Made by a program: the position numbers and the translations under genes
From: Symbiobacterium thermophilum IAM 14863
GTDB lineage: Bacteria > Bacillota > Sulfobacillia > Symbiobacteriales > Symbiobacteriaceae
Direction of reading: 5' to 3'
Length of the DNA: 64,000 bases
Assembly (NCBI RefSeq): GCF_000009905.1
Contig: NC_006177.1
Coordinates: 372,001 to 436,000 of the forward strand
Shown: one piece after another, positions 50,251 through 53,903 of the stretch
Layout: the number at the start of each line of letters is the position of its first letter
Numbering within the stretch: the stretch's first letter is position 1
Notes under the pieces: generated by a model
What the model saw: the letters and a program-made list of their open reading frames with translations, nothing else
Database searches by the model: none
Told to the model about the DNA's origin: nothing

Positions 50251-51021
50251 CTACGGGCCTTCCTGCCGCCGCCCTGCATCCAGGGTGCGTACCAGGTCGT
50301 GCGCCACCTGCACCAGGTCCCGCACCAGCGGCGTTGCCGGTTGGTTGAAGACCTCGGCCGGCGTGCCGATCTGGAGCAGCTTCCCTTCCGCCAGTACGGC
50401 CACCCGGTCCGCCAGGGGCGGGATCTCGGTGAAGTCGTGGGTCACGAAGAGGGCTGCCGTGCCGGAGGCCGTGAGGATCCGCCGCAGGTCCGCGAGCAGG
50501 TGGGATCGGGCCAGCACGTCCAGCGAGGCCATGGGCTCGTCCAGGTACAGCAGCCGCGGGCCGGTGGCCAGGGCCCTGGCGATGGAGACCCGCTGGGCCT
50601 CGCCGCCGGAGAGCTGGCGGGAGGAACGGTGGGCGAGATGGCTGATGCGCAGCTGCTCCAGCATCTCCATCGCCACCTCGCGCTGCTTCGCCGCCGGCAC
50701 GCCCCTGAGGCGCAGCCCGAGGGTCACGTTCTGCATCACGGTGCCGGTGAGGAGCAGCGACTCCTGGAAGACCACGGCCATCTGCCGCCGCAGGGCCAGC
50801 GCCTCCTGGGGGAGGCTCACCTGCCGTCCCTCCCAGCGATAGCTGCCGAAGGAGGCGGGGATGAGCAGGGCCAGGGCGTGCAGCAGGCTGGACTTGCCGG
50901 AACCGTTGGGGCCGATGACCGCGAGCACCTCGCCCGGCTGGATGGCCAGGTGCGGGACGTCCACGACCACCCGGTTGCCCCGCTTCACCTTGACGTCGGT
51001 CACTTCCAGCAAGGCGGTCAA
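50251..51021 (-). CDS. tupC: Tungstate-type ABC transporter ATP-binding protein
   Basis: Encodes 256 residues. Walker A GPNGSGKSS (about 38-46), signature LSGGEAQRVSIARALA and Walker B LLYLDEPMASLD are intact. It energises the TupB permease, with which it overlaps by 4 nt. The C-terminus after 230 is short, without a molybdate-binding TOBE domain, as in TupC. Substrate assignment comes from TupA and TupB. Confidence 0.88.
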   Translation of the reverse strand: MTALLEVTDVKVKRGNRVVVDVPHLAIQPGEVLAVIGPNGSGKSSLLHALALLIPASFGSYRWEGRQVSLPQEALALRRQMAVVFQESLLLTGTVMQNVTLGLRLRGVPAAKQREVAMEMLEQLRISHLAHRSSRQLSGGEAQRVSIARALATGPRLLYLDEPMASLDVLARSHLLADLRRILTASGTAALFVTHDFTEIPPLADRVAVLAEGKLLQIGTPAEVFNQPATPLVRDLVQVAHDLVRTLDAGRRQEGP

Positions 51022-51716
51022 TGCGGCCGCCCCCTTTGCTGGAGCAGAGTCAGGGCGTAGGTGACGAGCCAGATCAGGAGCATCAGGATGATCGACAGCG
51101 CGATGGCGATGTCGAAGTTGCCCTTGCTGACCTCCATGACCGTGGCGGTGGTCAGTACGCGCGTCCGGCCCAGGATGTTGCCGCCCACCATCGTCGAGGC
51201 GCCCACTTCGGAGATCACGCCGCCGAAGCCGCCGATGACCGCGGCCAGCAGCGGCAGCCGGGCCTCGCGGATGAGGAGCCAGTAGAGCTGCCAGCGGGAC
51301 GCCCCGAGGGCGAGGATCTGGTCGTGCAGCTTCGGGTTCAGCTGGCCGATGCCCGCCAGCGCGTAGCCCGTGACCAGGGGCAGGGCGATGAGGAACTGCG
51401 CGATGATCATTGCCGTGGGGGTGTACATCAGCCTGAGGTAACCGAAGGGGCCCGAGCGCCAGAGCAGGAGCGACACGACGAGTCCGGCGACGACCGGCGG
51501 CGTGCCCATGCCGGCGTTAACGATGCTGATCATGAACTCGCGCCCCGGGAAGCGGGCCAGTGCGAGAAAGCAGCCCAGCGGGATCCCCACCAGGATGCTG
51601 AGCAGGGTCGCCGTACCGGCGACCCTGATCGTCAGCAGCGTAACCCGCACGAGTTCCGCATCGCCGGACACGAGCATCCGCAGCGCGGCCAAGATGCCCT
51701 GTCCGATCATTTCCAA
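51018..51716 (-). CDS. tupB: Tungstate-type ABC transporter permease
   Basis: Encodes 232 residues with about five membrane segments. The permease EAA-like loop is LHDQILALGASRWQLYWLLI. TupB-type permeases are shorter than ModB and have the sequence STMVGGNILGRTRVLTTA near residue 173, seen here. It forms the channel with TupA delivering tungstate. It is between tupA (27 nt) and tupC (overlap). Confidence 0.88.
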   Translation of the reverse strand: MEMIGQGILAALRMLVSGDAELVRVTLLTIRVAGTATLLSILVGIPLGCFLALARFPGREFMISIVNAGMGTPPVVAGLVVSLLLWRSGPFGYLRLMYTPTAMIIAQFLIALPLVTGYALAGIGQLNPKLHDQILALGASRWQLYWLLIREARLPLLAAVIGGFGGVISEVGASTMVGGNILGRTRVLTTATVMEVSKGNFDIAIALSIILMLLIWLVTYALTLLQQRGRPH

Positions 51717-51743: not shown

Positions 51744-52694
51744 CTATCCGCCGAGCTCCTCCACAGACTTGCCCGCGTCCGGGAAGAAGAGCGGCTCGCC
51801 GTACTTGTCCACGCCGTAGGTCCGGATGATCTCCTGGACTTCCGGATCCACCATGAACTCCACGAAGGCCTTCGCACCTTCGGCGTTGACCAGCGGCCAC
51901 TTCTCGGGGTTGACCTGCATCACGTGGTAGATGTTGAGCAGTGGGGAGTCGCCTTCGAGGACGATCTCCAGCTCGATGTTCTTCTTCTGGGCGAGGTAGG
52001 TGCCCCGGTCGGTCAGGGTGTAGCCCAGCTTCTCGTTGGCGACGTTGATGGTGGCGCCCATGCCCTGGCCGGTCTCCTGGTACCACGCGTTCCCCCTGGG
52101 GTCGATGCCGGCTTCGTTCCACAGGGCCAGCTCCTTCTTGTGGGTGCCCGATTCGTCGCCGCGGGAGATGAAGAGGGAGCCGGCCTCGGCGATCTTCTTC
52201 AGGGCCTCGGCCGCCTTCGTGGTTCCCTTCACGCCGGCGGGGTCCTCGGGCGGGCCGATGATGATGAAGTCATTGTGCATGACCAGCTGCCGGTTGATGA
52301 CCACGCCGGCCTCCTCCAGCGGCTTCTCGGACTCCGGCGCGTGCACAAGCAGCACATCCGCCTCGCCGTTCTCACCCAGCTTCAGCGCCTGGCCCGTGCC
52401 GACGGAGACGGTCTTTACGACGTACCCCGTCTTCTCCTCGAACATCGGAACCAGCACGTCCAGCAGGCCGGTGTCCACGGTGGAGGTGGTGGTTGCCAGG
52501 ATCAGCTCGGGGTTCTCGGGGGTGGCCGGCTTTTCCGGTTCGGCCGGCGTCTCGGGCTGCGTCGACGGCTGCTCTGCCTGTTGCTCCTGCTGGGTCGGCT
52601 GCGGTTCGGTGCTCGGCTGCTGTCCGGCGGAGGAACAGCCGACCACAAGGGCCATAATGGCTGCGAGGACCATGAAGCGATGCAAGCGTTTCAT
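51744..52694 (-). CDS. tupA: Tungstate-binding lipoprotein (TupA-like)
   Basis: Encodes 316 residues. A signal peptide ending in the lipobox VVGCSS (about residues 17-22) anchors it outside the membrane, followed by a Pro/Gln/Glu-rich linker (about 25-62). The binding domain begins ELILATTTSTVDTGLLDVL, with the ATTTST motif that contacts the oxyanion in TupA. YGVDKYGEPLFFPDAG closes the protein, as in the family. Tungstate rather than molybdate is inferred from TupA similarity. ATG at 52694 follows GAGGGGGA. Confidence 0.9.
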   Translation of the reverse strand: MKRLHRFMVLAAIMALVVGCSSAGQQPSTEPQPTQQEQQAEQPSTQPETPAEPEKPATPENPELILATTTSTVDTGLLDVLVPMFEEKTGYVVKTVSVGTGQALKLGENGEADVLLVHAPESEKPLEEAGVVINRQLVMHNDFIIIGPPEDPAGVKGTTKAAEALKKIAEAGSLFISRGDESGTHKKELALWNEAGIDPRGNAWYQETGQGMGATINVANEKLGYTLTDRGTYLAQKKNIELEIVLEGDSPLLNIYHVMQVNPEKWPLVNAEGAKAFVEFMVDPEVQEIIRTYGVDKYGEPLFFPDAGKSVEELGG

Positions 52695-52730: not shown

Positions 52731-52776
52731 ACATAACGGGCGCGAAAAAAGCGCCACCGTAAGGTCACCGTTATGT
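52731..52776. promoter_or_regulatory. Probable operator region of the tup operon (CATAACGG repeats)
   Basis: ACATAACGG (52731-52739) and its complement CCGTTATGT (52768-52776) are 28 nt apart. A third, partial half-site lies at 52756-52762 (ACCGTAA), giving direct repeats spaced 11 nt on the minus strand. CGTTAT-type half-sites resemble E. coli ModE sites, though here their orientation is reversed. It lies between the regulator gene and tupA, close to the tupA promoter. A small GGCGC/GCGCC hairpin sits in the middle. Confidence 0.5.
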
Positions 52777-52841
52777 CCATGTAGAGCATAGCGCACGAGG
52801 GGGCAGTTGACAATCCTGTTTTGCGGCCATCGGGACATGGG

Positions 52842-53903
52842 CTACGGAAGGCGGAACAGCGGTTCGCCGTAGGCCGCCGTGCCGAACGCGCGGACGACGG
52901 CCCGGCCGGCCGGGCCGGTGGCCCACTCGGCGAAGCGCCTGGCGCCCGCGCCGTTGACGAATGGGAAGAGCTCGGGGTTGACGGGGATCAGGCAGAACTG
53001 GTTCACCAGTGCAGGATCGCCGCGGAAGAGGCCCGCGTAACCCTCGGGGCACGCCATGACCAGTGTCGCGGAGTCGATCAGCGTGTAGGCCCCGATAGCC
53101 GCCGCGTGGCGCAGCGTCGCGATGTTGCCCTGGCCGCCCAGGGGCCACGGCTCGTACCAGGGGGGTTCGGGCGAGATGCCCGCCAGCTGCCACAGCCGCA
53201 GCTCCCGCACGTTCGTGCCGGACTGGTCGTTTCGGCTGACGAAGGGATGCCGGCCCTCGGCGATGCGGCGCATCGCGTCCACGGCCGAGGCGGCCTGGCG
53301 GACGCGTGCCGGGTCGTCTGCCGGGCCGCAGACGACGAAGTCGTTCTGGGCCAGCGGGTAGCGCCCGGTGCCGTACCCCTCCGCCAGGAAGCGTTCCTCC
53401 AGCTCCGGCGCGTGGACCAGGGCCAGGTCCACCCGCCCCGCCCGGCCCAGGTCCAGCGCCTGGCCGCTGCCCGCGGCGATGTAGCGGACCCACTGGCCGG
53501 TCTCCGCGCGATAGGCGCCCACCAGCGCATCCACCAGGCCCACCTCGACCGGACCGATGGTGGACGCCATCAGCAGCGGGCGTTCCAGCGCCGCATCCGC
53601 CCGCTCCGGCCCAAGGATGGCCGCGGCCTCGCGCCTCAGCAACCGATGACGCCTGAGCAGGTCCTGGGCGGTCGGCGTCAGCTCGGCCCCTCCTCCCGAC
53701 GCGCCGCCGACCCTGCGCACCAGCAGGGGGGTCCCGATCTCCTCCTCGGCCCGCCGGATCAGGCCCCAGGCGTACCGGTACGAAACGCCGAGCACTTCCG
53801 TCGCCTTGCGGAGCGAACCCTGTTCCGCCACCGCGCCGAGAATGGCGCAGATTCGGTCGAACTGGTCATCCCTGGCCAACAGCGGGCGATAGTCCGCCGG
53901 CAT
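52842..53903 (-). CDS. Transcriptional regulator: ModE-like HTH fused to a TupA-like binding domain
   Basis: Encodes 353 residues and no signal peptide. Residues about 10-100 form a LysR/ModE-type winged helix (GSLRKATEVLGVSYRYAWGL, then GGGAELTPTAQDLL). Residues about 110-350 resemble TupA: IAAGSGQALDLGRAGRVDLALVHAP parallels TupA's VSVGTGQALKLGENGEADVLLVHAP segment, and both share NDF, ISRGDESGT/VSRNDQSGT and GEPLF. A cytoplasmic tungstate or molybdate sensor for the tup operon downstream is the natural reading. ATG 53903 follows GGGGTGAGG; the longer frame upstream is not coding. Confidence 0.88.
   Translation of the reverse strand: MPADYRPLLARDDQFDRICAILGAVAEQGSLRKATEVLGVSYRYAWGLIRRAEEEIGTPLLVRRVGGASGGGAELTPTAQDLLRRHRLLRREAAAILGPERADAALERPLLMASTIGPVEVGLVDALVGAYRAETGQWVRYIAAGSGQALDLGRAGRVDLALVHAPELEERFLAEGYGTGRYPLAQNDFVVCGPADDPARVRQAASAVDAMRRIAEGRHPFVSRNDQSGTNVRELRLWQLAGISPEPPWYEPWPLGGQGNIATLRHAAAIGAYTLIDSATLVMACPEGYAGLFRGDPALVNQFCLIPVNPELFPFVNGAGARRFAEWATGPAGRAVVRAFGTAAYGEPLFRLP

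Follow-up and report, generated by a model that had tools for sequence, protein, structure and literature searches.

How cells distinguish tungstate from molybdate in the cytoplasm is, to our knowledge, poorly understood. A 64,000-nucleotide stretch of the Symbiobacterium thermophilum genome (hereafter the window) carries, beside the genes of a tungstate-type ABC importer, a gene that a sequence-only reading had assigned to a cytoplasmic tungstate sensor. The locus raises the question of whether this protein regulates its neighbors, through which site on the DNA, in answer to which ligand, and from what ancestor its sensor domain came. The features considered are collected in Table 1.

Table 1. 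Features of the tup locus in the window
Feature	Positions	Strand	Basis
tupC, ATPase	50251..51021	(-)	assigned mainly by position
tupB, permease	51018..51716	(-)	profile match
tupA, lipoprotein	51744..52694	(-)	domain and profile matches
Back-to-back CATAACGG pair of the sequence-only reading, arms 52731-52739 and 52768-52776	52731..52776	(.)	only the right arm lies within the box
Candidate operator, ModE box CGCTATG-N11-CATAACG	52769..52793	(-)	best site by scan
Promoter-like pair of tupA: TTGTCA (52813-52808), 17 nt, TATGCT (52790-52785)	52785..52813	(-)	consensus scan only
Regulator gene, 353 aa	52842..53903	(-)	open frame; ATG start, GGGGTGAGG ahead of ATG
TupA-like sensor domain, about residues 106-353	52845..53588	(-)	PF12849; 3lr1/5my5
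ModE-type winged-helix part, residues 19-93	53625..53849	(-)	TIGR00637; model helices and wing

Architecture of the regulator

The regulator joins a ModE-type helix-turn-helix (HTH) to a transporter-type binding domain, and the sequence-only reading was right in this. The N-terminal part matches the ModE DNA-binding model TIGR00637 with an E value of 1.2e-15 and 57.4 bits, which falls below the curated cut-off of 98.5 bits, and the solved ModE structure 1b9m matches with E 1.1e-5. The HTH is matched by the HTH_1 and ModE models; neither TOBE/Mop domains nor HTH_17 appear among the Pfam matches of the protein up to E 10. Residues 112-330 match PF12849 (PBP_like_2) above its cut-off (E 1.7e-20), and the protein matches NF041772 with E 3.6e-37, under the cut-off of that model. 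Scores are lower for PF12727 (PBP_like; 11.8 bits, cut-off 27) and for LysR_substrate, PF03466 (a weak match at 20.1 bits, cut-off 28). The solved tungstate-binding TupA proteins 3lr1 (E 6.6e-44) and 5my5 are among the best structure matches.

A structure model of the regulator (mean pLDDT 91.7) displays a winged helix, a long linker helix (residues 77-97) and then a two-lobed domain, which superposes on 3lr1 with a Z score of 29.8 and an rmsd of 2.1 over 230 residues; full-length LysR-type regulators are also among the fold matches of the model. By reading, we found neither a lipobox nor a hydrophobic stretch at the N-terminus, whereas the adjacent TupA has one, and this agrees with the earlier statement that a signal peptide is absent. 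The protein is likely a cytoplasmic one-component regulator, and likely an oxyanion-responsive repressor.

Distribution of the fusion

A single-protein search of 398 genomes of the phylum found full-length fusions in the genome of the window and at least 10 others among the rows listed, and an eleventh other fusion genome, G019, was recognized by reading its frame; among the same rows there was none from other members of the window's own class. In a second sample of 397 genomes, drawn around a different center and searched with a profile, the fusion was present in 12. Twenty genomes of that sample passed E 1e-90, six of them by exported paralogues; in two of the 20, G187 and G237, the HTH and the TupA-like frame are separated by a stop codon. 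The class to which G370 belongs, of which 97 genomes were searched, has fusions commonly, and a GTDB scan contributed at least three (L052, L053 and L060) among the matches listed, 80 of 593 confirmed stretches. L053 is titled Desulfovibrio, a title that may be wrong because its upstream sequence is identical to that of G459, which is placed in the window's phylum. Searching other genomes for the architecture, as the sequence-only reading had proposed, thus recovered it in relatives of the phylum.

All 44 annotated loci, several of which duplicate one another, contain the fusion, and tupA or tupB adjoins it in most of those that reach far enough. At L033 6045-7952 (G210), L138 and L146 tupB comes immediately after the fusion, without an intervening tupA; G210 has a tupA-type gene on a different contig, accompanied by a perfect copy of the box described below. 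We found no description of a ModE-TupA fusion in the literature searched, in which coverage of subscription papers was small.

A ModE-type box before tupA

The likely operator had been placed at CATAACGG repeats between the regulator gene and tupA. Three exact copies occur in the window, against 0.75 expected by chance window-wide, and two of them do lie in the gap before tupA. However, these two stand back to back, the reverse of the arrangement in a ModE box, and the pair as drawn is not the element that recurs in relatives. The recurring element is a ModE box, CGTTATG-N10-CATAACG, and its counterpart in the window lies near the repeats and uses one of the two copies.

We counted this box in 22 distinct tupA upstream stretches of fusion loci, the window being left out and two identical duplicates dropped. 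At least 11 of 14 bases were matched in 20/22 and at least 12 of 14 in 12/22, in relatives that are not independent of one another, with shuffle means of 0.34 and 0.02, respectively; other spacers from 4 to 17 reached at most 6/22 at the lower threshold. Before the tupA-type genes of other loci the counts were 7/110 and 5/110, from stretches cut differently (600 bases before the domain, as opposed to the intergenic region plus 200 bases in the fusion set or, at three loci, a segment of set length around the start of tupA). The operator is therefore present in relatives with the same gene pair, but not in the form first drawn. The two perfect boxes of the 110-region set belong to L080 and L047, both with an HTH-only ModE gene just upstream. 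Such HTH-only genes stand directly upstream of tupA at L080 863-2148, L047 5809-7117, G187:C1:54358-55629 and G237:C1:81092-82342. The modA gene of E. coli is preceded by CGTTATATTGTCGCCTACATAACG, which has 13 of 14 bases and the same N10, about 20 bases ahead of the gene.

With spacers of 7-15 allowed, the box in Table 1 is the best site of the window (19.0 bits, next 9.9; relatives 16.8-28.7). It overlies the tupA -10 hexamer of the region's only promoter-like pair, and in L032, L145 and L155 the box begins right after a consensus -10, so its placement is that of a repressor site. Chance repeats as an explanation of the box were ruled out by the relatives, the shuffles, the control in the genome itself and the site scan. 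Two observations nevertheless weigh against regulation through this site: the spacer is one base longer than the conserved spacing (N11 versus N10), and L050, the tupA region of G019 in the control set, is missing from the 12 listed regions with the highest scores.

Boxes elsewhere in the genome and in relatives

When up to 2 mismatches were allowed, a scan of the whole genome (3,566,135 bases) gave exactly two N10 sites, each a perfect match, against zero in the control. The first stands 20 bases ahead of a MolA-like ABC operon, whose genes encode a PF01497 binding protein, a BtuC-type permease, an ATPase and a pair of DUF4213/DUF364 proteins. The binding protein matches HI_1472 with E 1.3e-36 and 4hn9 better, with 5.6e-50; by family, transport of B12 or an iron complex is possible. 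The DUF4213/DUF364 'heavy-metal chelation' proteins stand in tandem behind this boxed transporter (L165 8452-10017). The other perfect site (G000:C1:977299-977322, L166 6300-6323) lies between convergent GerQ-type and ferritin-type genes and has no obvious target, a point against the proposed regulation. The regulator carries the genome's only strong ModE helix (60.1 bits in a genome scan, next 22.9 bits); a second ModE-type regulator as owner of the boxes was rejected, the further matches being weak.

Among relatives, a box separates the fusion gene of G442 from the MolA-like operon that follows it. In G235, whose fusion gene is located apart, tupA has a box in front of it (1 mismatch), as does tupBC (perfect). 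When up to 1 mismatch is allowed, 15 fusion genomes hold 20 sites versus 5 in the reversed control. The 20 do not all belong to tungsten or molybdenum genes: one is found within a modA frame of G057 and one among phage-like genes of G442. At least one site is present in 11 of the 15 and none in G370, G019, G047 and G447. That four genomes are siteless, including G019 with the nearest relative of the regulator, speaks against the proposed regulation, as does the finding that at up to 2 mismatches the control about equals the real counts in most relatives. The expectation of such sites before tup and mod genes holds for tupA, tupBC and E. coli modA, but for the ModE-type box and not for the CATAACGG form.

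The oxyanion site and the ligand

In the portion of the source available, the site of Desulfovibrio alaskensis TupA comprises T9-T11, S12, H59, R118, T124 and D170, and includes the TTTS motif (PMC5517513). The residues at the H59, R118, T124 and D170 positions are conserved in 39/39 fusions, in 19/19 members of a second TupA-like exported group with STIGP replacing TTTS (hereafter TIGP) and in 119 or 120 of 120 TupA proteins. The lobe-B oxyanion residues H164, R224, S228, T230 and D277 are present in all 39 fusions. TTTS is altered in every one of these fusions, the window's regulator having STIG at 114-117. In the S12 column, S occurs in 118/120 TupA, G in 19/19 TIGP, and E in 37/39 fusions; the remaining 2/39, one of them the window's regulator (position 117), have G. 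In the residue-260 column TupA has M (98%) where fusions (92%) and TIGP (100%) have N. Conservation of the contact residues, on which the sequence-only reading had staked its claim, is thus found in one lobe and lost in the other.

An anion is the likely ligand because the H59, R118, T124 and D170 positions are kept, even though lobe A is rebuilt. The gene neighborhood and the lobe-B residues suggest that this anion may be tungstate. Loss of the TTTS motif in all 39 fusions, with glutamate at the serine position in 37, is odd for an anion site and tells against this reading. Since the TTTS serine is lost, we infer an affinity below that of TupA; such weaker binding would fit a gauge of the cytoplasmic pool.

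An alternative that we regard as rather unlikely is that the sensor answers to another ligand (molybdate, another oxyanion, or perhaps the ligand of TIGP), in which case tungstate uptake would be gated by a different signal. The TTTS serine is missing from fusions and TIGP alike; in both, positions 114 and 118 are mostly S and P, and position 260 is N in place of the M of TupA. The two also fall in a single clade separate from TupA; furthermore, one target operon is MolA-like, and HI1472/MolA carries both molybdate and tungstate. Against it, all three groups show little or no variation at the R, S, T, D and H of the described site, and the fusions mostly adjoin tup genes.

Origin of the sensor domain

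The sequence-only reading saw in the sensor a parallel of the adjacent TupA, and the two are indeed 39% identical across 254 columns. The tree that we built has 98 rows, namely the binding domains of 39 fusions (the window's included), 19 TIGP-type exported proteins and 40 of the 120 TupA rows, drawn at random except for the window's own. With the root set on TupA, a choice on which the status of a clade depends, the 39 fusions all fall together in a single clade (95/86), TIGP forms another (100/98), and fusions plus TIGP stand together against true TupA (100/100). Within the fusions, the window's sensor and the G019 sensor group as a pair (100/96; 54% identity). Because of this grouping, the sensor shares its ancestry with the TIGP protein and not with the adjacent TupA. 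That the sensor is a copy of its neighbor was ruled out by the tree, in which its sister group is TIGP. Re-use of a transporter binding protein as a sensor still agrees with the transporter-type domain and the absence of a visible export signal, but the source was not the neighboring TupA.

The STIGP-bearing exported protein was seen at L010-L013, L018, L019, L054-L059, L061-L066 and L069, and is often encoded beside tupA in Bacillota and in deltaproteobacterial MAGs. A wider proposal, which we put forward only tentatively, is that the fusion arose once from an ancestor common with TIGP, and that in both a remodeled lobe A (TTTS to ST-x-[EG]-P) serves to read a ligand or affinity range different from that of TupA. 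A scavenger and a matched cytoplasmic gauge would then stand in one operon, acting via an ancient ModE operator.

Proposed mechanism

In the model that we favor, the ModE-type winged helix would bind the ModE box as a dimer, both at the tupA -10 region and at the second box 20 bases before the MolA-like operon. The TupA-like domain would close on a group-6 oxyanion, most likely tungstate and possibly molybdate, when the cytoplasmic pool is sufficient, and we infer that the loaded dimer blocks transcription. We consider it probable that the loaded dimer sits on both sites and shuts both importers. The architecture, the clade, the box and the candidate targets on which this model builds come from sequence.

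We also asked whether, instead of only repressing, the regulator could activate transcription or, as TaoR does, do both. TaoR activates aor and represses tupABC, and E. coli ModE is annotated as a dual regulator; even so, the position of the box, on top of the -10 in the window and beginning just past a consensus -10 in L032, L145 and L155, makes this improbable. Control by RNA, with the back-to-back CATAACGG pair as the stem of a leader hairpin and attenuator, appears very improbable. The tupA leader does fold into a CATAACGG stem and contains a terminator-like hairpin, but its folding is not above that of shuffles (z -1.22, 24/200 as good) and the window has no Rfam match over the cut-off.

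A Moco riboswitch (RF01055) precedes tupA in 9/18 relatives' loci scanned, and at L035, L040, L041, L042, L150, L153, L156, L160 and L161 it occurs together with a ModE-type box (at least 11 of 14 bases) before tupA. Riboswitch and box in one stretch are two layers of control. No Moco riboswitch match was found in the window, and the protein would therefore act alone there.

Comparison with known systems

Cytoplasmic sensors in which a binding-protein fold follows an HTH are an old theme, that of the LysR-type regulators. For tungsten the theme is already known in TaoR, as far as the accessible parts of the sources go (PMC11980592, PMC10102598). The features that look new are a ModE helix combined with a TupA-like sensor, the single origin with TIGP, the rebuilt lobe A and the operator. 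Sensor and transporter-binding protein have a common fold and most pocket residues in common, and few fixed positions differ, so selectivity is directly testable by exchanging those positions. Moreover, a ModE-type operator appears to serve a regulator that has no Mop domains, and searches for ModE boxes can therefore be linked to tungsten genes in Bacillota.

The regulator differs from TaoR in joining a ModE-type HTH to PF12849, whereas TaoR joins helix-turn-helix 17 to a binding domain that we take to be PF12727. The TaoR family resembles it in combining an HTH, of the excisionase type and described as helix-turn-helix 17 in the available part of PMC11980592, with a periplasmic-binding-protein-like domain that controls tungsten genes (PMC11980592, PMC10102598, both in part). 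PF12727 has six places in the genome of the window, four over the cut-off (one MoeA-PBP protein and three resembling exported PstS-type proteins) and two below it (a LysR-type protein and the window's tupA); no TaoR-type regulator was found among the five of the six that were read. At L201 1420-3345 (G000:C1 near 3129357) a MoeA-type protein carries a C-terminal PBP_like domain, and a similar MoeA-type plus PBP_like protein is DVU0951, in the part of PMC10102598 available.

With LysR-type regulators the protein shares the winged helix, the linker helix and a two-lobed effector domain, but its HTH is ModE-like, its sensor is TupA-like by sequence, and LysR_substrate remains below cut-off. ModE of the E. 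coli type has the same winged helix and operator (13/14 bases, N10 at E. coli modA); unlike ModE, the regulator has a TupA-like sensor in place of TOBE/Mop, and the spacer is N11 at the window's tupA. TupA itself has the sensor fold and the lobe-B oxyanion residues in common with the regulator, which differs from it by the HTH in front, the lack of a visible export signal, the changed TTTS and a clade of its own.
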